A stretch of DNA of 23,477 nucleotides, taken from Strigomonas culicis (lineage: Eukaryota; Euglenozoa; Kinetoplastea; Trypanosomatida; Trypanosomatidae). Within the stretch, counting starts at the first letter, position 1. Each line of letters opens with the position of its first letter. This document shows positions 2,806 through 22,400 of the stretch, piece after piece. The DNA lies in NCBI GenBank assembly GCA_000482145.1, contig AUXH01000286.1, positions 1 through 23,477 on the forward strand, given 5' to 3'. A program made the translations under genes and the position numbers. Below the pieces are notes generated by a model. That model was not told the origin of the DNA. It did not search any database and saw only the letters and a list, made by a program, of their open reading frames with translations.

Positions 2806-4347
2806 TCACGACTTGTACGCGTCGCTCTCCTTGAGGAAGTGGCCCGCCGGTGTGTGCCCCGCCCCGAGCGTCGTCTTCTCCAGACTGCCCAGCTTGCCAT
2901 GGTCGCTGGAGCCGATGCGCAGCGCACCCATGTTGACGTTGTCCGAGCTGCCCGCGATGCTCTCGTACTCCTGAATGTGGACGCCGAACCGCTTCTCAAA
3001 GGCGAACTCCTCAAATTGATAGATGTAGTCCTTGAACACGTCGCCGATGAGGCCCTCATGCAGGGCAAAGTAGGGCATCTGCGAGTCGTGTAGCGGCCGC
3101 GCGTTCTCCCCGTAGGCGGTCTGCCCGTTGATCATCTGCATACGGCGGTAGCGGTCGAGGTCGATGCCAAAGTGGGCGAGCGTCTTGCCGGCCAGCCGCG
3201 AGGCGTGGCGCTTGACGTCGCGGTTCGACCAGTGCACCATGCGCCGCTTCTGGTCGAACCCGCCGTAGTAGTCGATCGCGTACTGCGTGCCGCTGCCGAA
3301 GAGGCCGAGGACCTTCTCCCCCGTCAGCGCCAGCTGCGCGTCGGTCGGCGGCTTGCCGGTGTAGAGCGCGTTGTGCAGGCAGAGGGACGAACAGAGGGAC
3401 GGGATGCACTGGGCCAGCGCGCGGTGCACCCAGATCGCCCGCAGGTCCGGGAAGGTCTCGTTGAGCGCGTCCGTGCTGAGGATCGCGAGCGGGCTGTGCA
3501 GGACCCACTGGGCACGGGCGACGGCGGGCTTGGTGCCGTACTTCTGCGTCTCCATCGGGTTTTCGATCGGCTCGTACTCCTTCGCGACCGGGGTCGTCAG
3601 GTGGCCGCAGCGGTGGTACCACTGCAGCAGCTTCAGCGTCCGCTTCAGCTGCGCGTAGACGGGCGTCTGGTCCTCCTCGATGCACTCCAGCAGGTGGGTG
3701 TCCAGGCCGTGCAGCAGACCCCACGCGAGGGACTGCGGCGTCAGCAGGTGCAGCGTCAGGTCGTCGTCGATCTGCGTCGCCTGGGGCACCCGCACGCAGA
3801 GAAAGTCCGGGTGCAGGTAGGGGAAGCCGAAGAACTGCCGCCGGAAGCGGTCCACGCGGTCGCTCTCGTGCAGCATGGACGGCGTCAGCGTATCGCACTG
3901 CTTGGCGGCGAGGAAGAGGCCGGTGTGGCTCAGCACGTGCGCCGCGAAGTGCCCGTTGGACCGCGGGAGGCCCATGACGACGAGCGGCTCCTCGATCCGC
4001 TCCCGCTCAATCTCATTGCCGTTGAGGCGGTACAGCTCGTCAATGGCAAGGCGCTGCGACAGGGCGTTGATCAGGCGCGACCGCAGCCGCGCGGCCCCAT
4101 ACGCGGTCATGTTTTTCTCCCCACATGCGCGACACAGTTTGTTCCACCACCGGTAGTGCTCGATCGTCTTGTCGGGCTCCGATGGGATTTCAACGTTTGC
4201 TATGTGACACGAATCTTTCAGTACATTTTCCATGAGAAAAGACTCCGCTGTCGGCCGTCTTGTCAACAGATTGGCCGCACGGGCCGCTAAGTTACCACCT
4301 CGCACGAGGTCCCGAACACCCGACATGGCTTTTATTCTACCTACCAT
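2806..4347 (-). CDS. Sulfotransferase-fold protein (Sulfotransfer_3-like) with altered PAPS-binding motifs
   Basis: The frame gives 513 residues from the ATG at 4347 to TGA at 2806-2808. A longer frame begins at a TTG at 4392, but the first ATG of the predicted mRNA is at 4347, with a second ATG 7 codons later. The N-terminus is basic and amphipathic with few acidic residues, so mitochondrial import is possible. The order of motifs follows the Sulfotransfer_3 family. A 5' phosphosulfate-loop position reads VMGLPRSNGHF (from about residue 124). An acidic block DDDLTLHLL follows (about 194-202). WVLHSP sits at about 281-286, and the 3'-phosphate region WVHRALAQCIPSLCSS at about 306-321. Family members normally have GLPRSGTT, WVLK and HRDP at these places, so several catalytic or ligand-binding residues are replaced. 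It may be a non-enzymatic relative or use another substrate. The first 60 or so codons are less GC-biased than the rest. Confidence 0.65.
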   Translation of the reverse strand: MVGRIKAMSGVRDLVRGGNLAARAANLLTRRPTAESFLMENVLKDSCHIANVEIPSEPDKTIEHYRWWNKLCRACGEKNMTAYGAARLRSRLINALSQRLAIDELYRLNGNEIERERIEEPLVVMGLPRSNGHFAAHVLSHTGLFLAAKQCDTLTPSMLHESDRVDRFRRQFFGFPYLHPDFLCVRVPQATQIDDDLTLHLLTPQSLAWGLLHGLDTHLLECIEEDQTPVYAQLKRTLKLLQWYHRCGHLTTPVAKEYEPIENPMETQKYGTKPAVARAQWVLHSPLAILSTDALNETFPDLRAIWVHRALAQCIPSLCSSLCLHNALYTGKPPTDAQLALTGEKVLGLFGSGTQYAIDYYGGFDQKRRMVHWSNRDVKRHASRLAGKTLAHFGIDLDRYRRMQMINGQTAYGENARPLHDSQMPYFALHEGLIGDVFKDYIYQFEEFAFEKRFGVHIQEYESIAGSSDNVNMGALRIGSSDHGKLGSLEKTTLGAGHTPAGHFLKESDAYKS

Positions 4348-4787
4348 TTTCCCCACTCCTTTCTTCCACTTTTTTTTTGTTTTTAAAATCAAATGAGTGC
4401 AGAAAAGGGAGTAAGGGGAACACCAACAAATTCTGTGAAAGCGCTAAAAGAAGAGAGTGAAAGAGAGAAAAGGAAGTGTAAAATAATAATAATGATAAAA
4501 ACACTTAATACAGAAAGGAAGTTAATTATGAACGTAAGAAGCATGGAAATAAAAGACTCCCAGAGAGATTCAATGTCAAAGGGAAAACCGGTTTTATTAT
4601 TTAAAACAAGAGAAAGTAAAACCAACTCGAAACAGGGATTAATATGAAGAAAAGAAAAAACGAGAAACGAAAAAAAAAAAAGAAGCGACGCCCTTAGCTA
4701 CTAAAATAGGCCTCGTATTCTCTTTAAATGGTAAAAAAGCAACTTTTTATTTCCTACCTCTTTATTATTATGTTCGATAGTATGTTC
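4348..4787. other. Intergenic region / 3' UTR of the VTC1 gene
   Basis: This is AT-rich, purine-rich sequence on the plus strand, and so pyrimidine-rich on the transcribed minus-strand product. It contains the acceptor at 4444-4445 and poly-A runs near 4670-4682. The open frames at 4389-4647 on either strand are low-complexity products of A/T runs, and I do not regard them as genes. Confidence 0.6.
4444..4483 (-). promoter_or_regulatory. Predicted trans-splice acceptor for the sulfotransferase-like gene
   Basis: The minus strand carries an almost uninterrupted C/T tract opposite about 4447-4480, ending in TTTTAG with the AG at 4445-4444. The first ATG downstream is at 4347, giving a 5' UTR of about 96 nt with no uORF. 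Confidence 0.6.
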
Positions 4788-5324
4788 TTAACGGGAAAAG
4801 CGTGCCGTCTCCGAGAAGGTGGACACGGTTTCGTTGTACTGACGCTGCAGCGAAAAGATAGTCGCCAGGACGAGAGACGTCCCAAGGACAATAACCAGCA
4901 TGGTGGGGCCACGCGTATCGTCATAACGCATGGGCTCACGCATGTAGATCTTATTCGCACGGTCACGGAAAATGAAAAGCGAGTACACCATAAAAACAAT
5001 TGAGACAGGAAGCAAGACCAAACCGGCAAGCTCCGCCCCATTGCTGGAGGCGTCACCAAAATTCAACAAGGTTAGTGACATCAGACCCACCATCACAGAG
5101 ATTGAAAGCCACTTCAGAAACGTACGCTCGTTAGCAAAGAAGGTCTTGGGATCGATCTTTTGCGGCACACAGATGCGCTTATCGTTAACAGATCCCGTTA
5201 AGTTACGGCCACCGGGTCCCTGCAGGTTCTGATACTTGTCGTCGCCTTCATCCTGCCCATCCGCCCATGGCTTCTGAGACCCAGAAACACAGCAGAGGTA
5301 TGACAAGCCTTTACTCGCGTCCAT
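4788..5324 (-). CDS. VTC1: Vacuolar transporter chaperone 1 (VTC1), DUF202 membrane protein
   Basis: The frame encodes 178 residues from the ATG at 5324 to TAA at 4788-4790. The first 55 residues are hydrophilic. A DUF202 domain follows, with the signature KTFFANERTFLKW (about 60-72) and three membrane helices at about 72-90, 99-118 and 141-159. This is the topology of VTC1, the small subunit of the vacuolar transporter chaperone complex that works with VTC4 to make polyphosphate and pass it across the acidocalcisome membrane. The length fits trypanosomatid VTC1 proteins, which carry an N-terminal extension relative to the yeast protein. The basic residues in and after the signature (Arg67, Lys71) are in the expected places. 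Third-position GC is intermediate, between the GC-rich genes to the left and the AT-leaning genes to the right. Confidence 0.9.
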   Translation of the reverse strand: MDASKGLSYLCCVSGSQKPWADGQDEGDDKYQNLQGPGGRNLTGSVNDKRICVPQKIDPKTFFANERTFLKWLSISVMVGLMSLTLLNFGDASSNGAELAGLVLLPVSIVFMVYSLFIFRDRANKIYMREPMRYDDTRGPTMLVIVLGTSLVLATIFSLQRQYNETVSTFSETARFSR

Positions 5325-5648
5325 GTCTTTCCTTCTTAGAGTTTATTTTCTTTTTTTGATTATTTCTTTTTTCTTGGCTTCTGGAAGCAGTAGCTGTTAA
5401 ATCGTATTCTCGCTAAAAACTACACAGTAGTAAACCTTTTTTTTTTGAAAAGAAAGAGAGAAAAACAAGAGGAAGAACAATTACAAAAACATCAACAAAA
5501 ATAAAAGAGATGGTAAAATGGGTAACACTTTTTTTTTTCGTGAGTGTATTTTTATTGTTTCAGCATTAAGAATGAGGTCGCAAACGAAACCAGAAGGTAC
5601 ACTGATGCGTACCAAAACAATTAATAAAGCACTCTAAAAGGTTGAATC
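5325..5648. other. Intergenic region / 3' UTR of the four-helix membrane protein gene
   Basis: This AT-rich spacer with poly-T runs (around 5440-5450 and 5529-5538) separates two minus-strand genes. It contains the VTC1 splice signals and presumably the poly(A) site of the upstream gene. I see no other feature. Confidence 0.55.
5420..5490 (-). promoter_or_regulatory. Predicted trans-splice acceptor for VTC1
   Basis: The minus strand has a T/C-rich tract (opposite about 5449-5485), a run of A and G, and then the first clear AG at 5421-5420. Other AGs follow before the ATG at 5324, so the exact site is uncertain. The predicted leader of about 95 nt has no upstream ATG. Confidence 0.45.
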
Positions 5649-6236
5649 CTACTGTGAATCAGGTACAGGAATGAAAATGTCCTGTGATGGATTGTGTGCA
5701 GCAATGTAATTCACTGTAAATACACACGCTGAAATGAAGAGTCTCCACAGGGATGTGTATCCCAGATAATTCTGCAGCGACATCCGCCAGTGCAATGCAT
5801 AAGCAGGGCCATTAACAATAAAGCTCAGAATATGAAGAAAAATAAGAACGAGTATTCCAGGAAAAAGGAAAGAGAATAATGTAAAGCTGAAAAGACGACG
5901 TTGTCCTTTATCGACACAGATCGGATGCAAAAAAGAAGGTAGCTTGGCGAGAGCTGTCATTTTCAGCGGTGCTCTCTCACCTGTTGCTATTGTCCTTGTT
6001 ATTTGAAAAGATGTACTAAACACCATGATACTAGTTAAAAATGTATAGCTTAACACGTTTACCAAGAGCGAAGGGTACACAAATTCAGGTGGCATGCTTT
6101 TTTCAACATACTGCTGCTTCTCCAGATAATAAGTCGAGCACAGGGATACGGTTGAAGACGTCGCAAATGCAATGGCAAAATGAGGACTATACAACAACTT
6201 GGAGATTGAGTCGATTTCTGCGTTTTGTCTCGACAT
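5649..6236 (-). CDS. Hypothetical four-helix integral membrane protein
   Basis: The frame encodes 195 residues from the ATG at 6236 to TAG at 5649-5651. I do not recognise the family. Hydrophobic segments lie at about residues 19-36, 55-76, 114-141 and 160-180, with a basic loop between helices 2 and 3 (TGERAPLKMTALAKL, about 85-99) and DKGQRR before helix 3. Both termini are hydrophilic. There is no cleavable signal peptide. The arrangement suggests a small polytopic membrane protein; the organelle cannot be told. Third codon positions are AT-leaning. It sits between VTC1 and a COQ9-like gene, but co-transcription in this kind of genome says little about function. The long frame, clear ATG and predicted acceptor upstream support a real gene. 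Confidence 0.75.
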   Translation of the reverse strand: MSRQNAEIDSISKLLYSPHFAIAFATSSTVSLCSTYYLEKQQYVEKSMPPEFVYPSLLVNVLSYTFLTSIMVFSTSFQITRTIATGERAPLKMTALAKLPSFLHPICVDKGQRRLFSFTLFSFLFPGILVLIFLHILSFIVNGPAYALHWRMSLQNYLGYTSLWRLFISACVFTVNYIAAHNPSQDIFIPVPDSQ

Positions 6237-6974
6237 GATTTATAATTGTAATTATTTTGTAATGATCTATTGCTTATTGCTCTTAAAATAATAATAATAA
6301 TAAAGAATACAAGGACAGAGGAGGGGTGTGAACAACGAAGTCAATAGCAACAACAACAAGAAAATAACACCTGCAAGTTTGGAACAAACACAACGTAACT
6401 GAGCAAACTCAACGAAAATATATGTTTTTTTTTCTTAGTAAACATATTATACTCATGATTTTGTGGATTTGTTGCTGTTATAGTTATTTATTTTGTAAGG
6501 TACACTTCTTATATTTTTGTGTATTATATAGAAGTATTTGTGATTCATGTATAACCATAATTCTTACTTTGGGCGAACGTCAAAAAGAAGGAAAGCAAAA
6601 GAAAAAAAATTACAAAAGGAGGAACACCAACAATGACTCTATCAGTCACCATGTTAAAGCAAAATTAAAGGACCAACAAAATAATGGCGGTAAAAATATG
6701 GAGACTAGAAGGAGCAAATTAAAAAAAAAAGTGACAATCATGATGAAGCGAACACCAATAATAAAAACACACAGTGTTTACATAAAATAAATGTCCATAA
6801 GGAATTATCACGCACTTCCAAATGGGCCTTCGATTACTATAATCACTGTCATTATTATTATAAAAAAAATGAATGCACTGATTTTTTTTTGAAGCAATAA
6901 CAAGGAAATTTCTCCTCTTCCATTTTTATTTCTCAAATGAGATATTATTGTGTAACTGTTCCGCTCGTGCTGGT
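6237..6974. other. Intergenic region / 3' UTR of the COQ9-like gene
   Basis: This is a 738-base AT-rich gap between two minus-strand genes. It has a (TAA)n patch near 6288-6303 and many A and T homopolymers. A 122-codon plus-strand frame at 6422-6790 is Lys/Asn/Ile low-complexity on the non-coding strand of the array, and I do not call it. Apart from the splice acceptor near 6282 I see no function. Confidence 0.6.
6282..6345 (-). promoter_or_regulatory. Predicted trans-splice acceptor for the four-helix membrane protein gene
   Basis: The minus strand shows a C/T-rich stretch (opposite about 6305-6345), a run of TTA triplets, and the first AG at 6283-6282. The leader of about 45 nt has no ATG before 6236. 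The interrupted tract makes this weaker than the other predicted acceptors. Confidence 0.4.
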
Positions 6975-7802
6975 TTAAAATAAACAGTGTGTCATTTTTT
7001 TTGCCAATGCTTTTGTTTCTGCTTTCCCAGCTGAAGTATCACCTAAAAGGGAAGTGACACATGTGCAGTAAATAAAACCTAATTGTGCGCGCTTCATGTA
7101 CCAATCCATGCTAAAGTTAGAAGTGCTCATGTGCGGGCCACTGGACAGTGGAACTCCTGCAATAAATGTTCGCAGAAACTTGGCCGTGTTGGAAAGCGGA
7201 GATTTGGATGAGGAGGATTCTTCATTGCCGATTGGAATATAAGAGGACATTACTTTAGACTGTATGATTTGTTTGGCTGGGAGGAGAAGTTGGTTGAGGT
7301 TTTCTACTCTCTCAATGTAAAAGCTAGATGAATCCACAAATTCTGTCAATGTGATGAGTGTGTAGGGGATATTTTGTGTTTGGTACTCAACTCCTACTGC
7401 GCTGGGCCACTTTTCACAGTACGGCATCAGCGCTTCCAGTTTTTTAATGATTGCAGATGCCGCAACATCTTTGGAAGTTGGGGGAAAAAAGCGGTTATTG
7501 ATGTAGTCTTCTTCATTGCGCACTATAGTGTTAATAATATTTTCTGAGCTGTATACTTCATCCAAGTACTTCTGAGTAATAGTCGTAGTATCCTTGGCAA
7601 CATATTCCACAAGTGCAGCAGGAAAACCGCGCTCAAACATGACTGACAGTGTGGAAGGTGTAACTGTGCTTTTATGCTCCACTTCGTTCAAGGCTTTCAG
7701 AAGTGCATCATTCGTAAAACCGACCGCAGGCACATGCTTTTTTGCTTGCTCAAGCAGACTAAATCTCAGGTGATAAAGCTCCGGACTAAGTGTGGCAAAC
7801 AT
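6975..7802 (-). CDS. COQ9: COQ9-like protein (ubiquinone biosynthesis), with an insertion and a shortened C-terminus
   Basis: The frame gives 275 residues from the ATG at 7802 to TAA at 6975-6977. Three COQ9 family signatures are visible in order. The N-terminal helix-turn-helix-like segment is LLEQAKKHVPAVGFTNDALL (16-35). The helix KKLEALMPYCEKWPSAVG (120-137) continues to NIPYTLITLTEFVD. The lipid-binding C-terminal block is DWYMKRAQLGFIY (233-245). COQ9 is a mitochondrial lipid-binding protein that supports COQ7 in coenzyme Q synthesis. Two points are odd. About 76 residues, partly a serine-rich run (196-201), separate the VD motif (156-157) from DWYMKR, where other COQ9 proteins have only a short loop. 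The end after residue 254 lacks the usual TW..L..R region. No long presequence is seen. In the first 55 codons only 24 end in G or C. This is the first gene left of the strand switch. Confidence 0.7.
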   Translation of the reverse strand: MFATLSPELYHLRFSLLEQAKKHVPAVGFTNDALLKALNEVEHKSTVTPSTLSVMFERGFPAALVEYVAKDTTTITQKYLDEVYSSENIINTIVRNEEDYINNRFFPPTSKDVAASAIIKKLEALMPYCEKWPSAVGVEYQTQNIPYTLITLTEFVDSSSFYIERVENLNQLLLPAKQIIQSKVMSSYIPIGNEESSSSKSPLSNTAKFLRTFIAGVPLSSGPHMSTSNFSMDWYMKRAQLGFIYCTCVTSLLGDTSAGKAETKALAKKMTHCLF

Positions 7803-7828
7803 TGTTTTGATTTAATTTTTTTTTTATC

Positions 7829-7885
7829 CTTGAAGAATAGTGAGAAATGTGGAGAGGGATATGAAATAAAATGGAAAAGTGAAGC
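7829..7885 (-). promoter_or_regulatory. Predicted trans-splice acceptor for the COQ9-like gene
   Basis: The minus strand has a long C/T-rich tract (opposite about 7833-7885), ending in TTCTTCAAG with the AG at 7830-7829. This leaves a short A-rich leader of about 26 nt before the ATG at 7802. Confidence 0.6.
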
Positions 7886-8002
7886 GTCTCTGTGAGTGTC
7901 GTGGGCGGAAAATACATAATTATTTATATATTTATTCCAATGATTTGCATTCCATAATGTTAACGTTTTAATTGAATTATCAGAGGTCTTGATAAAACTA
8001 GG

Positions 8003-8430
8003 TGATCGATGGGCGGCGGGCGGCGTTGGCAAGCTCGCGCTTTTCCTCGGTTTTGGATTTCGCCCGTTTGGCTTCCCTGCGCTTGGTGCGTGTCGGGCGC
8101 GGGGTGCGCCATCGGCCGCCTGGGCGCTTTGGGAGGGGTGCGTGTGCCCTTGGCTGAGGGGCGCGGGGCGCGGGGTCCCCCCCGGCGCCGCGGGGCCGGG
8201 GCTCGGCCCCTCGCCACGGGGGGCGTGCCCCGCCCTGGAGGTGTTGGGAGCCGATTCCCCGCCCCGTGGGTGGCGTCTTGGCAATTCCCTTTCTTTTTAT
8301 TTCCGCCGCGGCGGGGCGCGGGCCGGCCGGTTCACGCGCCGCCCCCTCGGGAAATGTGGAGCCGGCCCCCCGGGCGGGGTTGGGAATGCGCCGCGGTTCG
8401 CTGGGGGTTATGATGCTGCTTTGATTTTTC
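8003..8430. other. GC-rich island inside the AT-rich strand-switch region
   Basis: About 430 bases with very high G+C are embedded in AT-rich flanks, with G more frequent than C on the plus strand. The island contains repeated GGGG runs at 8158-8161, 8165-8168 and 8172-8175 separated by CGC, and a further run at 8192-8195. A GGGGC/GCCCC hairpin with a 3-nt loop lies at 8198-8210, and a perfect 12-bp palindrome (CCGCCGCGGCGG) at 8303-8314. Frames are open on both strands because GC-rich DNA has few stops, but the predicted peptides are Pro/Arg/Gly low-complexity and run into AT-rich sequence. It may be a promoter or origin element, or the remnant of a gene; I cannot decide. Confidence 0.7.
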
Positions 8431-8722
8431 ATTGGCGTGTGAGGTGGGGAAACGACGCGGATGGTTCCATGAGTGTTCGTATCTCTTACCGTTGCTTTTT
8501 TAACAACATTAAATTGTTTAAAAAGTATGCGAGGCGTTTATTGCGAGCACGTTCCCACACCTTATTATATTATTATATACATGTAATAGCAATGAGAAAA
8601 ATGCTGTATTTATTACTTCATTACTTACTGGTTACTCTTTATTTTGTTCGAGAGCAGAAATAATACTGTAATTAGTAAATACACTGTTTGTTGGTACTCA
8701 TGCATCTTTTCACAAGTATTAT

Positions 8723-8866
8723 AGATATGTCCATATATATATCCATACACCTACATATTTGTATTTATATATCTACATCTATATTCATACACATCTATGT
8801 TTATATAACTGTATCTATTTATCTATACATGTACGCATACATGGACATAAATATATGCATACATTT
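8723..8866. repeat. Degenerate TATATC/CATACA-type simple repeat
   Basis: The plus strand is built of short, imperfect A/T/C words such as CATATATATC, CTACATCTATAT and CATACA, with hardly any G. It has no exact tandem period, but the words recur throughout, and again at 9290-9480 and near 23240-23280. It ends in a T run at 8864-8874. Confidence 0.6.
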
Positions 8867-9286
8867 TTTTTTTAAAGGCCGTGGAAAGCATGGAATTATC
8901 AGAGTAGACGGGTAATGCAATGAAAAGGAAAGCGATTTGTTTTCGATCCGGACGTGTAAATCAATGATAAAGTGATTATTCGCTTGGTCCACTTTCACAC
9001 TTTAAAGAGAATTCTATCGTTCTTTCTTCGAAAAACCATCCCGCCCACCCCTGCGCACAGCTACTGCAGGGATCCTTGGATTTCGAAAAGAGAGAGGACC
9101 TTTTCCCTTTGTACATTTCATGAGGTGTAATTTGGCAATTTATTCTAGAGTAAACAATACACGGAAAAGGAAAAGGAACATAATATTTTAGGTAGTAAAA
9201 TATATTCTTTCGCTTGTGAATGTACCAATGATGGACACGCTCATGCGGAATGAAACGTGTTGTTTTCCCAGAATTCTTATTTTTCT

Positions 9287-9500
9287 TTTATGAGTATCCA
9301 TACGTTTCCATCTATTTATTTACCAATATGCATCTATCTCTACATCTATATGGGAACCAGGCTTCACCCTCTTAAATGCATATATCCACATATCTTTATA
9401 TTTAGATGTGCACATATATACGTGTCTAATTATACATCTGTCTGTGCACCTAACCATATCTATTACACCCACCCTTTGGTATGGATATATGTACATATTA
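9287..9500. repeat. Second degenerate TATATC/CATACA-type simple repeat
   Basis: This stretch has the same vocabulary as the one at 8723-8866, in the same orientation. The 12-mer CTACATCTATAT at 9340-9351 is identical to 8773-8784. A non-repetitive interruption lies at about 9352-9378. Confidence 0.55.
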
Positions 9501-9763
9501 AATTGTAGTATATGTGTTTTTTTTTTCAGTACAAATGCTATGTATTGTTTTTGGATTGTAATATTTTATTCCTTTTTTTTTTTTTGCACTCTAATCCAAC
9601 GAAGAATAATTCAGTATGCATGTGCATAAATAGGAAGTGTTTGAATATAAATACCGAGTGCAATTTAGCTTCACTATTTTCTTTTGTGTTAATATGCAAA
9701 AATACTTTTGTTTTTCCATAAATAATATGTTTTGAATCCAATTACTGAATCATACCAAACTCC

Positions 9764-9812
<49 letters not shown>

Positions 9813-9819
9813 GTAATAG
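9764..9819. repeat. (AAT)n microsatellite
   Basis: About 16 uninterrupted AAT units (9764-9812) are followed by an imperfect GTAATA end. It lies in the strand-switch region about 680 bases upstream of the dynein start. Confidence 0.95.
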
Positions 9820-10189
9820 GTAAATTCCGTTGACAAATGCAGCAGAGTTAAGGCACTGCATTCATTCACTTGTAAACTTGTAATAAAATACATGTACATA
9901 CATATTTATAGATATAAATGAAGTTTATTATAGAAAAAAAAAAGATTCCATTAAAGCAATGAGTTATGATGCAGCCGAATGTAAGACAGCACTTTTCTGA
10001 AGGAAGAAAAAAGACACATTAAAACGCTTCTGAAATAATAATAATAACCACAATATTAAAATAACAGATTTGAATTATTTGATGTATTTCAGGACCTGTT
10101 AACGTATCCATGAGTAGACGGCAATATATTACTCTCTCTCTTGTGCATCTTTTTTTTACTTATGCATGTTATGCTCCTGTTCATTTCTT

Positions 10190-10308
10190 CTTTATTTCCT
10201 TCTTGTTCTTATTTTTTTCCTTTATTATTAGGTTTTCGTAGTTCTACATTTTTTTTGATTTCTCTTTTATTCTCTTTTTTTTTCCCTTTGTCCTTGCGGG
10301 TGTATCAG
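10190..10308 (+). promoter_or_regulatory. Predicted trans-splice acceptor for the dynein heavy chain gene
   Basis: A long T/C-rich tract, densest at 10250-10292, is followed by the first AG after it, at 10307-10308. This gives a predicted 5' UTR of about 191 nt. The leader contains a start-stop uORF (ATGTAA) at 10434-10439. Later AGs could also be used. Confidence 0.5.
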
Positions 10309-10499
10309 CAACAAATATATAATATTCAATTTCGTGTTGGAAACAGAAGGTCTGTCTGAAACAACAGTAGCGTTATCAAGCAACAACATACATAACAAGT
10401 GTGTTTTAGAGGTAAGCGCAAGTACTTAAATATATGTAAATAACTGTGCTATATAGTGATTTCTAAGGTATTTACGACACTTTAAAAAAAAAAAAGACA

Positions 10500-13400
10500 A
10501 TGGCTTCCAATGATCTGCTCAGTGCTCCACTTAGCAGCGTTGATGATGCGACCAATTTTTTTGAATTGGTTGATAGCATGCGTGCGCATGGAAAAGCACT
10601 GCCTCCCATTAATCATGTGTTCTTTGCGAAAGTCGATGCTGGGCTTGATTTTCAACCCTATCTCATTCGCGCGGTCTCCAAGGAAAACCGTCCAGCAAAT
10701 TACTTTATTGTTACAAGAGAGTATGTAATTAAAGTAAATCGAGTGCTCTCCACCTTTGAAACAGTTGGTACGGTTAGCGCATGGCGCAGAGAAACGGAGT
10801 GCTTTGCCTTGTTACGCAAGCTAACGTTTTTCAAGAATTTTTTACGTGCAAAGATGCTCACACTGTGGAGACAAAAATGTGAAGAGATGAAGTTCAACAA
10901 GAACAGAACTTTGCTTGCAAAGCGGCTACTTATTGCAAACCCTCTCTTTAGCTCCACTTTGGATTCGCTGATGAAACGAGCGTTTGACTTGGAGTGGCGG
11001 AAAAACAATGACACGGATCGGGAATATGAGGTTGTTTACAATCTTGCGCTTTATTCGGAGAACAGATATCCCAAAGGAATTGGTTTAGATGAATTCTCTA
11101 CTATCCAGCAGTCTTACTCCAGCGATCTGAAAAAGCTATTTGGCAACGCACTGCTTCATATTTTGACGGGTGTTCTTCAGTGCTCCGGAAAAGTGGATGA
11201 TTTAATTGCAAGGCTTCCTTCACTGGAAAAGAAAACGGGTTCTATTGTAGGCACTGTCAATAAAGAACTCGCGAATGAAAAACAGTTCAGACTAAAACAA
11301 GAACATAAAGCACTGCTGGTTTCTCAAGAGAATATTTCGCAGCTGGTACGCGCGATACATATTCTACAGGTTGAGGCATTATTTAGACAAGCATGCACAT
11401 CTTTTTTCGAATTGGGTAAGCTAGTGAATTACAGAGTGGTTAACGATTCGTCGGTTTGGTTTTTTCGAGTAAATTGTATCATCGATAATGACGTATTGAC
11501 CCTTGCACCAAATAAGTCACAGCTCTTAGCCAAAGTGGAATACACGTTAAACGAATCCATTATCGACCTCGCTAATATCCCCACTTGTGCAAATTCCGAA
11601 GAAATAAGGAAAAAGTGCATCATTCCGGTGGAAACCGATCATCCAAACAGCCTGTTCTTCGGTGACCCACTCTTGATGGATTACCAGAACACAATTCTAG
11701 ACAAGGTGGCCGATTGCTTCGAAGACGCACAATCGAAGTTACCACATTATGAAGCGTTGCTAACGTCGTCTGCTTTTCTTAACCAGTTTGACAAATATCA
11801 CATGTCATGGAGATTCACATTGGACACAAACGAGCTCCTTGTTGGGGTGATTTCGGAAAGTGATCTGCGTAGTTATTTCACACGCGCCGTGCATCTTTCA
11901 GACACTGTAAAAAAACTAGAAGGCCACGGGTACGGCATCATTTTTGTGAGCTGCAAATCTATTGTCCAGTCACTGTTGAAAAAACTGAACCATACCATTA
12001 GCGACATCAAGGACATGCTTCACCGCTTGATCGAATCGCAGAGTGCTACCTTTCTGGAGGCGGTGAAATCCTGGAAAACACGGCTGCAAACCCCACCACT
12101 CGAGCTCGCCGCGTACGTGGCGTGGCAGGAGGAGGTACTCAACGGCGAGGAGGCCTACGAGACCTTCTCGTCGCAAGTGAGCGACCTGCAGGCCCTGCAG
12201 GCCCTGCAGGTCGAAATACACGAGCACACCAACCCGGACGTGGCGTATCGCAACACCGTGGACGTCAACATGGTGCTGCGCGAGCCTTTTCTGCAGATGC
12301 TGACCGCCGCCAAGCAGTTCCACGCCACGAATCGCTCCACCATGACGGACAAGGTCATTGCGGAGAGGAAGGACATTATCGCGACACTCGAGCAGGCCGC
12401 CAAGCGGCTGCGGGACAGCTTTGGATCCCTCACGGCGAACGAGGGCGTCTCAGCGCTGAAGAAGCTGTCGCATGTGCAGGACAACGTGAGCCAGCTTCAC
12501 GTCCATGCCCGGCAGCTGGACCACTGCGCGGAGAGCCTCGAGATGGCGCCACTCAAGTGGCTCGAGTTTGGTGTCACGGAGGATGAGGTGCACCGATACG
12601 AGGAGCTGTGGAAGACGTACAGCGAAACGGAGCGGCTGAAGGAGCAGCTCATGATGAAGCAGGTGCAGAAGCTCAATGGCCAGGAGCTGCGCGACACCAT
12701 CGTCTCGCTGTTCCAGCGCGCCTTCAAGATCTCCAAGGTGATCCCCGGCGATGCGTCCGAGAGCCTGGTGTCCTTTCTGTCGGACCAGAAGGCGAAGGCG
12801 TCCCTCTACGTGGAGCTGTGCAACCCCGCCCTGAAGGAGAAGGACTGGGAGCTCATTTTCGAGCAGGCCGGCATCCCGCACGTCTCGGCGCCGCTGCGCA
12901 CACTGGTCGAGCTGCAGACGGCGAAGCTGCTGGAGGGCAACGAGGAGATCATCACCAATGTGGTCTCGAACGCGGTCGGCGTCTTCGAGGTCGAGCAGAG
13001 CATTGGCAAGATCGACAGCTTCTGGAAGGAGCGGCAGCTGCTTGTCGTGCCCTACGCGGGTCGCGCCAACGCCTTCGTGATCGACGGCGCGGACGAGCTG
13101 ATGGAGGAGCTGGAGGAGCAGCAGGTGGTTGTGCAGACGTGCCTTGCCTCCAAGTTCGTGACGGAGATGCGGGAGACGGTGGAGGGCTGGGAGGAGAAGC
13201 TGTCGACGATACGGGCGGTCATCCTGGAGTGGGTCTCCGTGCAGAAAGCGTGGATGTATCTCGAGTTCATCTTCTCCAGCGACGACATCAAGCGGCAGCT
13301 GCCCGACGAGTCGCTGCTCTTCTCCGCTGCGGACCGCTTCTTCACGAACCTCATGAAGAGGTGCTACGCGGAGCCGCTCGCCGCGCCTGTGTGCCTCGCG

Positions 13401-16400
13401 GACGAAATGCTCAAGAAGCTGGAGAAGTGCACCTACCAGCTCGACTCCGTGCAGAAGAAGCTGGACGAGTACCTGGAGACGAAGCGCGTTGCCTTCCCCC
13501 GCTTTTACTTTTTGTCGAACGACGAGCTGCTGTCCATTCTGTCCGACTCGCGCAACCCGCAGGCGGTGCAGCCGCATCTGCAGAAGTGCTTTGACAACAT
13601 CAAGGAGCTGCTCTTCGCCGACGCGAAGACGATCGTGGCGATGAAGAGCTCGGAGGGGGAGCAGGTCGTCTTCTCGAACCCGGTCAAGATCATCGGCAAC
13701 GTGGAGAACTGGCTGAACGACGTGGAGCGTGCGATGCGGGAGACGCTGTACAACGCCCTGAGCGCGTGCCTCAAGGCCTACGCGCCGGAGCGCCGCCTCA
13801 CGTGGTACTTCGAGCACGCCGCGCAGAGCATCGCGACGGCGGACCAGGTCGCGTGGACGCAGGAGGTGGAGCAGGTGATCGCGTCCGCCGCGACGGTGCC
13901 GACCGCGTGGGCCACCTACACGGCGTCGTACCAAGCCGAGCTGCTGGGGACGGTCGCCCTGGTGGAGCGCGCGCTGACCGCGCTGGAGCGGCAGGTGGTG
14001 TCCAACCTCATCGTCGCGGATGTGCACTGCCGCGACATCAACGCCAAGCTGGCCGCCGCACAGTGTGCCTCCGTGCTCGACTTCGCGTGGCTGCAGCAGC
14101 TGCGGTATTACTGGACGGAGCCGGCGCCGCGGGCGACGGTGAAGAACTGCGTGATCCGCCACGGCGCGGCGAGCCTCAGCTACGGCTACGAGTACCTCGG
14201 CAACCAGCCCCGCCTCGTCATCACGCCGCTGACGGAGCGCGCCTTCCTGACGTGCACGGCCGCCCTCCACATGCAGAAGGGCGCCGCGCCGCAGGGCCCG
14301 GCTGGTACGGGTAAGACGGAGTCCGTGAAGGACCTCGGCAAGGCCCTCGCGCGCCAGGTGGTCGTGTTCAACTGTTCGGATGGCCTGAACTACAAAATGA
14401 TGAGCCAGATGTTTGCCGGCCTCGCCCAAGGCGGCGCCTGGGCCTGCTTCGACGAGTTCAACCGTATCGAGCTCGAGGTGCTCTCCGTCGTGGCGCAGCA
14501 GATGCTGGACATCACGACCGCCATCGCGCAGAAGCAGCTGAGCATGAACTTCGAGGGCCACCGGATCAAGCTGCACCCCAACTTCGGCGTCTTCATCACG
14601 ATGAACCCCGGCTACGCGGGCCGCACGGAGCTGCCGGACAACCTGAAGGCGCTCTTCCGGCCGATTTGCATGATGATCCCCAACTACGCGCTCATCGCGG
14701 AGATCATGTTCTACTCGGAGGGCTACACCAAGGCCGGCATGCTGGCGGACAAGATGATTCGCCTGTACTCACTCGCGTCGCAGCAGCTGTCGAAGCAGGA
14801 CCACTACGACTTTGGGATGCGCGCGGTCAAGGCCATCCTCGTCGTCGCCGGCCGCCTCAAGCGCGCGGACCCCGACTGCGACGAGGAGCTGCTGCTCGTG
14901 CGGTCCATCTGCGACGCGAACCTGCCCAAGTTTTTGACGGACGACACGCACCTCTTCCTCGCACTCGTGCGGGACTTCTTCCCCGACGTGGCCGCGGACG
15001 AGGCGGCCGGCGCGAGCGTCAGCGCGACGGCGCCGGCGACCATCAGCGATGTCCTGCAGGCGGAGACGATGGCGGTGCTGACCAAGGGCGGGCTGCAGGC
15101 GCCCCCGGGCATGCGGCTCAAGGCGGTGCAGCTCTTCGACACGCTCATCACGCGCCACGGGCTCATGCTGGTCGGCCACACCATGACCGGCAAGACGACG
15201 CTGCGCGACAACCTCGCGGCGGCGCTCACGAACCTCTACGCCCGACGGGCGAGCTACAGCTTCGACGCCCGCTCGCTCTCCTTCTTCACCAAGACGAACG
15301 CGATCGAGTGCAACCCCAAGTCGATCACCATGACGGAGCTGTACGGCGATGTCAACCCGCTCACGCGCGAGTGGCAGGACGGCGTCTTCTCGTCCATCGT
15401 CCGCGACCTGGTGCGGGCCGCGTCGGCGGAGGGGCACGTCGACCGCCACTGGGTCGTCTTCGACGGCCCGGTCGATGCCATCTGGATTGAAAACCTCAAC
15501 ACGGTCCTCGACGACAACAAGATGCTGTGCCTCGTGAACGGCGAGCGCATCCGCATCCCCGAGCCCATCTCGATCCTCTTCGAGGTGCAGGACCTGCGCG
15601 TGGCCTCGCCGGCAACCGTCTCGCGCTGCGGCATGGTGTACATGGACCGCGAGGCGCTCGACGACGGGTGGCGGCCGGTGGTGACGACGCTCTCGCAGCG
15701 CGCCGATGCGGAGCTCGGCGACAAGCACTGGAAGCACAAGCGCTTCATGGAGTTGTGCGACAAGCTCGTGCCGGCGCTGCTGCGCCACGTGCGCACCCAC
15801 GCGAAGGAGTACATCCGCACCGTGGATGCCCAGCTCGCGCGGAATGTCTTCTACATGCTGAAGGCGGCCCTGCTGGATATCAAGGAGGCCGTGGAGGCGG
15901 AGCAGTCGCAGACCGCGGCGCAGCGGCGCTCCTCGAAGCGCAACAGCACGCTGCCGGTGCGCACCGCCGCGCTCTTCCTCGGCGACCAGCTCTTCGACAC
16001 GCTCTTCATCCAGAGCTGCACCTGGGGCATCGGCGGCAACCTCGCCGACGGGCACCGCGACGGCTTCGCAGCCGAGCTGCTGCGGCTGGTGCGGGAGTGC
16101 AGGTTGTACTTCCCCGAGGACGCGGAGGGGCGCAACCTGACCGTGTACGACTACGGGGTGAGCACCATGACGTGCGACTGGCAGCGGTGGACCGATCTCG
16201 TGCCGGCCTTCCGGTACGACGCGAGCCAGCCCTTCTTCGACATTGTCGTCCCGACCGCCCACACGGTCGTGCTGAACTTCCTGCTGCGCTGCTCCACGCT
16301 GGTACAGCACCACGTGCTGCTGAACGGCATGACCGGCACGGCCAAGTCCTCGACGGTGAACAACTACCTGCTGTCCACGCTGCGGACCGAGAACGCGGAC

Positions 16401-19400
16401 AGCGACTACGTCGCCTTCGCCTTCACGCTCAGCGCCCAGACGTCCTCGCGCAGCCTGCAGGAGACGATCGAGAGCAAGCTGACGAAGCGCCGCGGTGAGA
16501 AGGAGATCGGCCCGCCGCCGTCCAAGAAGCTCATGATCGCCGTCATCGACGACTGCAACGTGCCGCAGCTGGAGGTCTACGGCGCGGCGCCGCCGGTGGA
16601 GCTGCTGCGCCAGATGATCACGCAGGGCGGCTTCTACGACCGCCGGAAGCTCTTCTTCAAGGAGGTGGTGCACACAATGCTCGTCGCCTGCTGCGGCGAG
16701 CCCGGCGGCGGCAAGAACGAGCTGACGCCGCGCTTCACGTCGCAGCTGCTGTCCTTCTGCGTCCCACAGCTCTCCACCGAGTCCATGCGGACCATCTACG
16801 AGACCATCTTGCGCAACTTCTTCGACACGCGCTCGTTTGCGGAGGAGGTGCTGCAGCTGGCCGGCGCGGCGGTGGACAGCACGCTCGAGGCCTACCGCCG
16901 CATCAGCGTGGAGTGCCTGCCGACGCCGGAGAAGACGCACTGCACCTTCAACCTTCGCGACGTGAGCAAGGTGGTCCAGGGCGTGCTGCAGGTGGCGCCC
17001 GCGCAGTGCGGCACGGCGCAGCAGCTCGTGGACCTCTGGAGCCACGAGGCGTCGCGCGTCTTCCACGACCGGCTCATCGACGACCAGGACCGCGGCTGGT
17101 GGTGGCGCTGCTGCCGCGAGACGATCGACAAGTACTTCGGCGCCGCCGTGGAGGAGAACGCGCGGCGTGCCGCGGACACCGACGGCGGCGTCGCGGCCGA
17201 CCTCAAGGTGGAGGAGGCGTCTCTCAAGGAGATCCTCTACGGCAACTGGGGCAACCCGCGTGAGCGCGCCTACCAGCGGATCGAGCACGGCGCCAAGACG
17301 GAGGAGGTGATCCACCAGTACTTGGCGGACTACAACTTGCAGAGCACCGTCCCGATGAACCTCGTCTTCTTCACAGAGGCGATCCAGCACCTCTCGCGCA
17401 TCTGCCGCATCATCAACCAGCCGCGCGGCCACGCGCTGCTCGTCGGCGTCGGCGGCAGCGGCCGCACGTCGCTGTGCCGCCTCGCGGCCTCCATGATGAA
17501 CATGGACCTGCACACAGTGCAGATCATGCGCGGGTACAACATCGAGAGCTTCCGCGACGAGATGCGGCGGGCCCTCCTCGACAGCGGCGCGCGCGGGAAG
17601 GAGGTGGTGTTCGTGCTCGCGGACCCGCAGATCGTCTGCAGCGAGATGTTGGAGGACGTGAACAACGTGCTGAACATCGGCGAGGTCCCCGGCATGATGC
17701 GGCTGGAGGAGATGGAGGTCATCCTGCGGCTCTGCCGCGAGAACTGCATCGCGGCGGGCAAGCCCGACACGCGCACGAGCGTCTACCAGTACTTTGTCGG
17801 CCGCTGCCGTGAGCAGCTGCACATGGTGCTGTGCATGTCCCCGATGAGCGGCTGCTTCCGCGAGCGCCTGCGGACCTTCCCCGCGCTGGTGAACTGCACG
17901 ACGATCGACTGGTTCTCCCCGTGGCCGGCGGAGGCGCTCCTCACGGTCGCGCGGCACATCCTCGTCGCCGCGCGCGCGAGCGACACGGGCCCGCTGCAGC
18001 CCGCGGAGGACTTCTCGGGCGCGCTGAGCGCACTGCTGACGTACATCCACCAGTCCGTGCAGACCGCGTCGGCCGCGCTCGACGCGCGGCAGCACCGCCG
18101 CAACCACACCACGCCGACGAGCTACCTCGCGGCGCTGCAGCTCTTCCACGCGATGCAGCGCAACCGGCTGCAGTGCATGCACGGCAACATGCGGCGCTAC
18201 GGCGACGGTCTGCGGAAGCTGGACGACGCGAACCGCACCATTGCGGAGCTCAAGGCGGAGATCAGCCGCATGCAGCCGGTGCTGAACGCGGCCCTCGCCG
18301 AGGCGGAGACGCAGCAGCGCACCGTGATGGCGGAGAAGAGCGAGGCCGACGTGCTGCGCGCGGACTGCGCCAAGGAGGAGGCGGCCGCGAAGGAGCTCAT
18401 GCGTGGGGCGGAGGAGATCCGCAAGGTGTGCGAGGCGGGGCTCGCCGAGGCGATGCCCGCGCTGGAGGCCGCCGAGCGCGCGCTGCAGACGCTGAGCGCC
18501 AAGGACATCCAGGAGATCAAGACCTTCCCGACCCCACCGAGCAACGTGGAGAAGACGATGAACGCGGTGCTCATTCTGCTGAAGGAGAGGGACGGCTGGG
18601 CGAGCGCGAAGGCGTGTCTGGGGAAGATGGATTTCCTTACCCGCCTCACGAGCTACCCGCGGGACGAGATCCCGGCGACGGTGATCAAGAAGCTCGCCGG
18701 GTTCATCAACGACCCGGAGTTTGTGCCCGAGGTGATCGAGAAGACGTCGCTGCCGTGCCGCTCCATGTGCATGTGGGCGCACGCCATGTACAAGTACTAC
18801 TTCGTCGCGAAGGAGGTGGCGCCGAAGCGCGCGCAGCTGGAGCAGGCGGAGCGGAAGCTCTCCGAGGCCCGCGCGCTGCTGGCGGAGAAGCAGAAGGCGC
18901 TGCAGCAGGTGCTCCGCCACATCGCCGTGCTCGAGGCGGCCGCGAAGGAGGCGAAGGACAAGGCGGACCACCTCACGCGGCAGATTGAGACCGCCACCGC
19001 GCGGCTGGAGCGCGCGGACCAGCTGACGAGCGGCCTCGCGGCGGAGAAGGTGCGCTGGCAGCAGAACCTGCGGACGCTGGAGCAGCAGCTCGGGCGCGTG
19101 GCCGGCACGTGTGTGCTGGGCGCCGGCTGCGTGGCCTACCTCGGCGCCTTCCCGAGCTCCTATCGCGAGGACCTCATCGCGGCGTGGCGCAGCAAGTGCG
19201 CGGAGGTGCAGCTGCCGTTCGACACGGACTTTGCGCTGGAGCGCATGGAGCCCGAGGCGAAGGTGCAGCGCTGGGCGCTGCAGTCCCTCCCGCGCGACAC
19301 CTTCTCCGTGCAGAACGCCACCATCCTGCAGCTCAGCAGCCGCTGGTGCTACATGATCGACCCGCAGGGGCAGGCGAACCAGTTCATACGGCGGAGCCAC

Positions 19401-22400
19401 GGCGCCAGCGGCGGCGCCGGGCTTCTTGTGCTGAAGCAGACGGACGACAACTTCATGCGCAGCATCGAGAACGCGGTGCAGGTCGGCCAGCCGGTGCTGC
19501 TGGAGGGCGTCGGCGAGACGCTCGACGCGGCGCTGGACCCCATCCTGCTGAAGCAGGTGCGCCGCACCGGCGGGCGCAACGTGGTGGTGCTGGGCGATAA
19601 GGAGGTGACCTACAATGACGGCTTCTGTCTCTTCATCACGACGAAGCTGTCGAACCCGGTGCTCACACCGGAGCTGCAGGTGAAGGTGACGGTGCTCAAC
19701 TTCACGGTGACCCCGAAGGGGCTGGAGGACCAGCTGCTGTCCGACATTGTCGGCTCCGAGCGCGCGGAGCTGCAGGCGAGCAGCGACCGCTGCATCGTCT
19801 CCATCGCCGCGCAGCGCGAAGAGATCCACGCGCTGGAGGAGAAGGTGCTGCACATGCTGAGCGAGGCAAAGGGCGACGTGCTGGACAACATCCACCTCAT
19901 CGACACGCTGCAGACCTCCAAGGCGACGTCGGATGCCATTGCGAAGGAGCTCGCGGTGGTGGAGGAGACGAGCGCGAAGATCTCCGTGACGCGGGAGCTC
20001 TACCGCCCCCTGGCGGAGCGCGGGTCGCTCATCTACGGCGTCATCGCGGACCTCGCCAAGGTCGACTCCATGTACGAGTACTCGCTGCAGTTCTTCAAGA
20101 ACCTCGTTGTGACGGTGCTGGTCGACACGCGGGAGGACGGCGGGGTGGCCGCGACCTCCGTGCGTAGCGCCGGCAGCAGCATGAACTCGCCCATGCACGA
20201 CCGGCGGCGGGAGGAGGTGACGGACGAGGCCGCCGTGCGGGTGCGCGTCGCGATGCTGATCGAGGAGGTCATGTGGACCTCCTACCGCGTCGTCTGCCGC
20301 GGCCTCTTCGAGCAGCACAAGATCCTGTTCAGCTTCCTGCTCGCGGCGACGCTCATGAAGCGGGAGGGCAGCGTCACGGAGGAGGAGTGGGAGCTCTTTC
20401 TGCAGGGCGCGGCGGGCCGCGCCGCGTGGGAGGGCTTCGCGGCGGTGCCCCCGCCGGACTACATGAACAGCGTGATGTGGGCCGACTTTGGCGCGCAGTG
20501 CCGCCTCGATGTGTTCATCGCGGCTCGGCAGCAGTTCCTGACCGCCGAGGACACGTGGCGGCACTGGCTGGTCGACGTCCACGGCGACGCGGTGCTCGCT
20601 GAGCTGCCCACCGCGATCCGCGAGCTCTCCGCGTGGCACCAGGTGCTGCTCTTCAAGGCGATCCGCCCGGAGCTGGTGCACAGCGCCGTCGTGACGCTCG
20701 TGCTCAACCGGCTCGGCGAGCGCTACACCCGGGCCCCGGGCTTCATCCTCGCGGAGGCCTTCCGGGACAGCACGAAGCTGACGCCCATCATCTTCATCCT
20801 GTCGCCCGGCACGGACCCCACCGTGCTCTTCACCTCCTTCGCCGAGGAGCTCGGCTTCGCGGAGCGGCGCTACATGCTGTCGCTCGGCCAGGACCAGGGC
20901 CCGCGCGCGCAGAAGATGATCGAGGACGGCCGGCGCGAGGGCTGCTGGGTCTACCTGCAGAACTGCCACGTCTACGCGTCGTGGATGCCGAAGCTGCAGC
21001 AGCTGGTCGAGGCGATCCGGCCGGCGGACACCCACGACGACTTCCGGCTGTGGCTGACGAGCAGCCCCTCCCCCGCCTTCCCCGCGGCCGTGCTGCAGGC
21101 GGGGCTCAAGCTGACGCGCGAGCCGCCGCAGGGGCTGCGCGGCAAGGTCCGCGAGACGCTGCGCATCGCCGCCGTGCAGGAGGCGTGGGGCGCCGCCGCG
21201 GCGGCGGCGGCCGACGGCAGCCGCCGCGCCTCCCCCACTGACAGCGCGCTGGACACCAAGGCCGCGACCTCCGCGACCTCCGCCGGCGACGGCGACGGGA
21301 AGGGGCTCGCCACGGCCATGGCCGCCGCGGAGGAGGTCTATGCGAGCCCGCGCTGGCGCCGCCTCGCGTTTGCCCTGGCGCTCTTCACCGGCGTGCTCAT
21401 GGAGCGGCGGCAGTACGCGCCGCTGGGGTGGAACCTGCGCTACGAGTGGGGCAGCGACGACTTCGCCGCCGGGCTCAAGACGCTGACGACGGCGCTCACG
21501 CGCTGCACGGCGGAGGAGCCCATCCCGTGGCCGGAGCTCGCCTTCATGCTGGGCACGATCGACTTCGGCGGGCGCGTGACGGACATGTGGGACACGCGCT
21601 GCCTCGAGGTGCTGACGAAGCAGTTCTTCACCGCCGAGGCGGACGAGGCGCGGCTGGCCGGTCGCCAGGCGCCCGGCACGGTCGGCTACGTGCCGAGCCT
21701 GCCGGCGGGCTGCAGCTACGCGGAGCTGCTGGACTTCGTCGACACGGCGATCCCGGACGCGCACCCGCCGCTGCCGACCGCCTTCGGGCTGCACGCCAAC
21801 GCGAACATCGCGCTGCTCCGGCGCCGCTCCGCGGACCTGGTCGGCGCGCTCGTCCGCATCAACGCCGGCGGCGGCGGCGGCGGCGACGCGTCCGGCGGCG
21901 AGGGCGGGCGGGCGCTGGTGGCGCACGTGGCGCAGGGGCTGCTGGACCGCGTGCCGGCGCCGCTCCCGCACGTGGGGGTGGTGCGGTCGGCCGACGCGGA
22001 CGCGCCGCTGCGGACACTGCTCGCGCACGAGGTGGACCTCTACAACGGGCTCGTCGCGGAGGTCGCGCGCAGCCTGCGCGAGCTGCTGCGCGCGCTGCGC
22101 GGCGAGGTGGTCATGACGCGCCAGACGGAGGAGACCGCGACGCGGCTGCAGTACGGGCAGGTGCCCGACTCGTGGCACCAGGCCGGCTACCTGTCTCTCA
22201 AGCCCCTCGCCTCGCACTTCGAGGACTTCCTGCGGCGCCTCGACTTTGTGCGGACATGGTGCGAGGCGGGCCCGCCGGCGAGCTACTGGGTCTCCGGCTT
22301 CTTCTTTCCCCAGGGCTTCATGACCGCGATCCTGCAGTCCCGCAGCCGCGCGCTGCACGTGCCGATCGACACGATGGAGTACCGCTTCCGCGTGCTGACG

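Follow-up and report, generated by a model that had tools for sequence, protein, structure and literature searches.

A valley of AT-ending codons around a divergent strand switch in Strigomonas culicis as the probable footprint of an RNA polymerase II start region

Strigomonas culicis is an insect-living trypanosomatid and a relative of Leishmania. In trypanosomatids, the starts of RNA polymerase II (Pol II) transcription are hard to define because the genes lack ordinary promoters. A stretch of 23,477 nucleotides of the S. culicis genome (hereafter the window, which is the entire contig AUXH01000286.1, or C286, of a 17.7-Mb, 670-contig assembly) raises the question of whether such a start can be read from composition: around a divergent strand switch, GC at third codon positions (GC3) drops to about one half over some 8 kb and then rises again within genes. 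Judged from gene order and composition, this valley is probably the trace that a Pol II transcription start region of the kinetoplastid type has left in the sequence. It consists of two arms, each running downstream of a presumed start.

In the window, the genes to the left of 7.8 kb lie on the minus strand, and the dynein heavy chain gene, beginning at 10.5 kb, lies on the plus strand. Between them lies a GC-rich island of 435 bp with 72% GC, longest C/G runs of 7, 6, and 6 and a CpG observed/expected ratio of 1.03, flanked on both sides by AT-rich DNA. Here and at all other sites, genes are mechanical picks of open reading frames (ORFs), island limits were drawn by eye on GC profiles, and edges are two-segment fits of GC3, each set against 200 block shuffles. 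At the right edge, GC3 rises from 0.46 to 0.96 at 12,101, inside the dynein ORF and 1.6 kb from its ATG; at the left edge, it rises from 0.47 to 0.93 at 4,180, 167 bp from the start of the ORF at 2806–4347. The likelihood ratios of these steps are 819 and 494, respectively, against shuffle maxima of 67 and 68, and their intervals at two log-likelihood units span 12,099–12,105 and 4,111–4,186. In 25-codon bins, the change at the right edge is spread over about 300 bp. Residues 1–520 of the dynein, which form its valley part, match one homologue with 42% identity over 99% of the stretch; the low-GC3 part is thus real coding sequence. The first-pass annotation of the window had placed both edges inside reading frames and their midpoint on the GC-rich island, and both placements hold: the edges lie in the ORFs at 2806–4347 and 10500–22775, and the midpoint, at 8.14 kb, in the island at 7,998–8,432. 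Its counts of codons ending in G or C were exact on recount (24 of the first 55 in the COQ9-like gene, 19 of the first 50 in dynein, and 50 of 50 at 20640–20789), and it rightly called VTC1 intermediate (112 of 179 codons, or 0.63).

A second valley of this kind lies at a divergent switch on contig C1, with its island at 6.03–6.41 kb and its right edge inside a 4,083-aa ORF. In blastn searches against the genome, the stretch holding the window island and the C1 island each matched only themselves, so the two are not copies of one sequence. As C/G runs are common to both despite this lack of similarity, a limited number of the clusters of such runs in the genome were listed. The DNA sampled outside the window amounts to about 0.27 Mb of the 17.7 Mb. 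It comprises 19 control stretches of 10 kb picked by contig number (a 20th fell in the window), among which C1 and C350 were found, and six further sites, which are all the non-coding-looking clusters fetched from those listed and are all reported here; the listed candidates on C7, C24, C47, C53, and C54 are among those outside the comparison. The sites outside the window lie on eight other contigs.

Eight sites show the same anatomy, each island being located at a divergent switch (the window, C1, and, from the fetched six, C2, C15, C16, and C58) or where a gene cluster begins in head-to-tail order (C13 and C350). C/G runs reach 7–16 in the seven islands measured, and AT-richer, low-GC3 arms follow downstream; the C58 island (L030 4950–7700) is broad, with uncertain limits. 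GC3 is low on both sides of the island at all six divergent switches and recovers within the sampled DNA at five of them, the exception being C15; the right arm of C58 climbs to about 0.6–0.7 in a further 2.5 kb. At the two head-to-tail islands, the dip is found on the downstream side only, the upstream sides having GC3 of 0.91 and 0.86. The convergent site on C33 has no dip, with 0.68 and 0.81 on its two sides. The check proposed in the first-pass annotation, a dip at divergent but not at convergent switches, thus came out in its favor. Pfam matches support the gene direction on both sides in the window, C2, C58, C13, and C350, and on one side in C1, C15, C16, and C33; the RRM domain on C350 and the Cep192 domain on C58 are barely above the Pfam cut-offs.

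The arms are of similar length. In 14 of 14 arms, GC3 in the 3 kb nearest the island is 0.31–0.62, and a step exceeding all 200 block shuffles occurs in 11 of them, 3,816 ± 674 bp from the island (median 3,764). Typically, GC3 stays near 0.45 for about 3.8 kb downstream of the island and then goes up, often steeply, to 0.6–0.96. The position of the step varies less when measured from the island than when measured from the first ATG, with coefficients of variation of 0.18 and 0.42, respectively, over the 11 arms. Up to the step, an arm spans one to four ORFs, and nine of the 11 steps lie more than 150 bp inside an ORF. Given these internal steps, codon usage set gene by gene is ruled out as a cause. 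Ordinary genes do taper in GC3, from about 0.88–0.91 to about 0.71 at both 5′ and 3′ ends (41 complete genes with GC3 of at least 0.7, in 13 control stretches); because this taper spans only about 80 codons, it is rejected as the source of the valleys.

Similar dips at random places, against which the first-pass annotation had asked its claim to be held, are rare. Among 90 genes of at least 150 aa in all 19 control stretches, the median GC3 is 0.80 and only four genes fall below 0.55, three of these beside islands (two on C1 and one on C350) and a single one, on C285, away from any island; one C350 gene, which failed the ORF filter by its odd composition, was admitted to this tally by hand. 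The C285 gene lies beside a 2.4-kb gap between same-strand genes (L014 1474–3837), without an island, which is perhaps an internal start.

The position, polarity, and width of these domains and their C/G-run core match known kinetoplastid start regions, which makes a start-region footprint likely. The RNA genes point the same way. A 5S rRNA gene adjoins the head-to-tail island of C13 (L027 5150–5268, plus strand; C13:78749–78867), and four of six groups of RNA polymerase III (Pol III) genes on C1–C100 lie within 1 kb of listed C/G-run clusters, against about 0.02 per group expected by chance, a rough figure in that the 1-kb limit was set after viewing the lists and coding clusters were included. 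The first-pass annotation had suggested one chromosomal domain, perhaps linked to transcription-start chromatin; the link is supported by position and width, but the single domain gives way to two downstream arms.

In the available text on Leishmania major, start domains of acetylated histone H3 are 4–6 kb long and linked to raised AT content; like the valleys, they are polarised, with G/C tracts upstream (PMC2679053). Those domains were defined by chromatin, and the available text describes no GC3 step, no edge inside ORFs, and no one-sided composition at head-to-tail starts (PMC2679053). The switch of Leishmania chromosome 1 is described as AT-rich and as holding a poly(C) tract and a start segment that is C-rich, at about 70% GC; an AT-rich switch holding a C-rich or GC-rich start segment is common to it and to the S. 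culicis sites (PMC1805754). However, only about 1.6 kb separates its start codons, and in the portions available the AT-richness is described for the switch and not for the neighboring genes (PMC1805754). The start domains of Trypanosoma brucei, at about 10 kb, are comparable in width with the two-arm valley of about 8 kb; they were defined by about 50 H2A.Z nucleosomes, and composition is not addressed in the accessible part of the report (PMC7083915). AT-richer start domains are therefore already noted in L. major, which the steep step inside ORFs and the polarity extend. Neither such a step, located within ORFs and nearly equidistant from starts, nor a one-sided GC3 dip at head-to-tail starts was found in the accessible literature on Leishmania conversion bias and strand-switch composition, in which few subscription journals were covered, or in the available text of PMC1805754, PMC11708010, PMC2679053, and PMC7083915.

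Several observations weigh against a start-region footprint or its proposed cause. Within the available DNA, neither arm of C15 (C15-L and C15-R) nor C350-L has a significant step; that of C16-L is marginal and not significant in another fit, and that of C16-R, 98 bp from an ATG, could equal the ordinary 5′ taper. For polarity there are two head-to-tail sites, and for the convergent control a single site. Around the C285 gap, GC3 is 0.53 downstream and 0.79–0.83 upstream with no island, and two other control stretches (L007 and L011), in which there is no island, have middling GC3, mostly 0.55–0.69, that resembles neither the valleys nor the saturated regions. The assignment of start regions in S. 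culicis comes from sequence and not from chromatin or run-on maps. According to the available text on L. major, nearly half of its predicted starts have no long G-tracts, and such tracts occur elsewhere too (PMC2679053). As for the cause, intergenic DNA responds weakly; when each of 17 dyneins was scored against the rest for amino-acid replacements, the contrast in Lotmaria was equally large (0.077); and the amino-acid test on the SNF2-like gene of C2 gave no clear result.

At fourfold sites, GC is 0.431 within 3 kb of the island (3,521 sites) and 0.915 beyond 5 kb (5,174 sites). G and C, as well as A and T, are nearly balanced there in both zones, and GC skew is 0.054 near and 0.055 far; since the skews are alike, strand-specific mutation during transcription is rejected. 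In the codon families tallied, A- and T-ending codons are both rare in the far zone. Around the divergent islands (six sites), intergenic GC goes from 0.31 in the nearest 3 kb to 0.36 at more than 5 kb, and the control sample has 0.39; the far zone of these tallies is drawn from the window and C1 only, and the fourfold and intergenic tallies of the control sample from 13 of its 19 stretches. Given how little intergenic GC changes, the drop is mainly in coding DNA, and intergenic DNA is AT-rich throughout. The first-pass annotation had described a coding and non-coding valley, of which the coding half stands and the non-coding half is weak. Dynein replacements lean more to GC-rich codons in residues 1100–2700 than inside the valley in comparison with 16 of 16 homologues, a pattern suggestive of nucleotide-level pressure, though not proof of it.

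These data are to be read against our preferred start-region footprint, in which the island where gene clusters begin would be the Pol II start core and each low-GC3 arm would be the stretch lying in start-region chromatin, with acetylated H3 and the variants H2A.Z/H2B.V. Within an arm, a strand-symmetric, GC-raising pressure on coding DNA would not act. Nucleosomes alter mutation in yeast, and trypanosomatid intergenic DNA is nucleosome-poor. As a tentative first choice for the pressure, we propose conversion or repair biased toward GC and dependent on ordinary, stable nucleosomes. Such a pressure would also leave intergenic DNA, taken as nucleosome-poor, AT-rich, and would thus explain both the AT-rich intergenic DNA and the AT-rich start arms. 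We consider it an even chance that the chromatin state of a Pol II start domain has left its mark in synonymous codons, the arms being of almost constant length and the edge a few hundred bases wide.

A purely regional substitution bias near starts, acting alike on coding and non-coding DNA through weaker GC-biased gene conversion or a stronger mutational bias toward AT, is possible though somewhat doubtful. It agrees with the near balance of G with C and A with T at fourfold sites, with the taper of ordinary genes at both ends, with the replacement pattern of dynein outside and inside the valley, with the existence of one SPO11-type (TP6A_N) match, and with the correlation of intergenic GC with flanking GC3 (r 0.40 over 91 gaps). 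Yet the slope of that correlation is shallow: the test for a joint shift, as expected of a conversion domain, gave the same direction in both kinds of DNA but a weak response in the intergenic one, 0.31 to 0.36–0.39 against the doubling at fourfold sites, so that intergenic DNA would have to turn over rapidly or be constrained.

The confinement of the strong effect mainly to coding DNA would instead suit selection on synonymous sites, with GC-ending codons favored because they stabilize mRNA or nucleosomes and AT-rich DNA retained around starts to keep the chromatin loose. Codon choice and GC3 are reported, in the available text, to affect mRNA levels in trypanosomes (PMC5896881, PMC5896880). 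In its plain translational form, however, such selection cannot account for steps inside single ORFs (9 of 11), and the joint rarity of A- and T-ending codons resembles GC pressure and not matching to tRNAs; we regard it as unlikely. It is more improbable still that a replication origin or a centromere, and not transcription starts, underlies the domain: strand-switch regions have been suspected of such roles in Leishmania, by the accessible account (PMC1805754), but the arms at the two head-to-tail sites are one-sided in keeping with the direction of the genes, fourfold skew is alike near and far, and the window holds no long tandem array. A replication origin is possible, with no specific support in the present data. 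Foreign or introgressed DNA of other composition might produce a steep change inside genes, but the same anatomy and similar arm length at eight sites, and the alignment of the valley part of dynein with the N-terminus of homologous dyneins, make it scarcely credible.

If the start-region chromatin is indeed recorded in synonymous codons, start sites, direction, and domain width would be readable from sequence alone, the sequence itself seeming to record where transcription begins; a GC3 step at near-constant distance would let starts and their direction be mapped from genome sequence. The cause of extreme GC3 in such genomes would also become testable by what stops at the domain edge. Each such ORF offers a within-gene natural experiment on GC-rich coding, with the same ORF and the same chromosome on either side of a presumed chromatin boundary. 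The features of the window are listed in Table 1.

Table 1. Island, arms, and reading frames of the valley in the window (positions in the 23,477-nt stretch)
Feature	Position	Strand	Remarks
GC-rich island with C/G runs at divergent strand switch	7998..8432		Proposed Pol II start core
Left low-GC3 arm	4180..7997	-	GC3 0.45 within 3 kb of island; step at 4,180
Right low-GC3 arm	8433..12101	+	Non-coding to 10,499, then dynein codons; step at 12,101
COQ9-like ORF, first of left cluster	6975..7802	-	Pfam COQ9, E 5.3e-6; GC3 0.42
195-aa ORF	5649..6236	-	No Pfam match; GC3 0.41
VTC1-like (DUF202) ORF	4788..5324	-	Pfam DUF202, E 1.7e-16; GC3 0.63
Sulfotransferase-like ORF, holds left edge	2806..4347	-	Sulfotransfer_3 below cut-off (25.3 of 27 bits)
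Dynein heavy chain ORF, holds right edge	10500..22775	+	Pfam dynein domains

Scans for RNA genes gave a few further observations. No tRNA was found in the window or, with ARAGORN under bacterial settings, in the 28 fetched loci, and the window has no Rfam match. Besides the 5S rRNA gene of C13, there are four more 5S matches, on C53, C169, C215, and C601, the one on C53 lying 168 bp from a listed C/G-run cluster. The convergent region of C33 contains a 75-nt match to the eukaryotic small-subunit rRNA model (L029 4457–4531, minus strand) beside GC-rich DNA.

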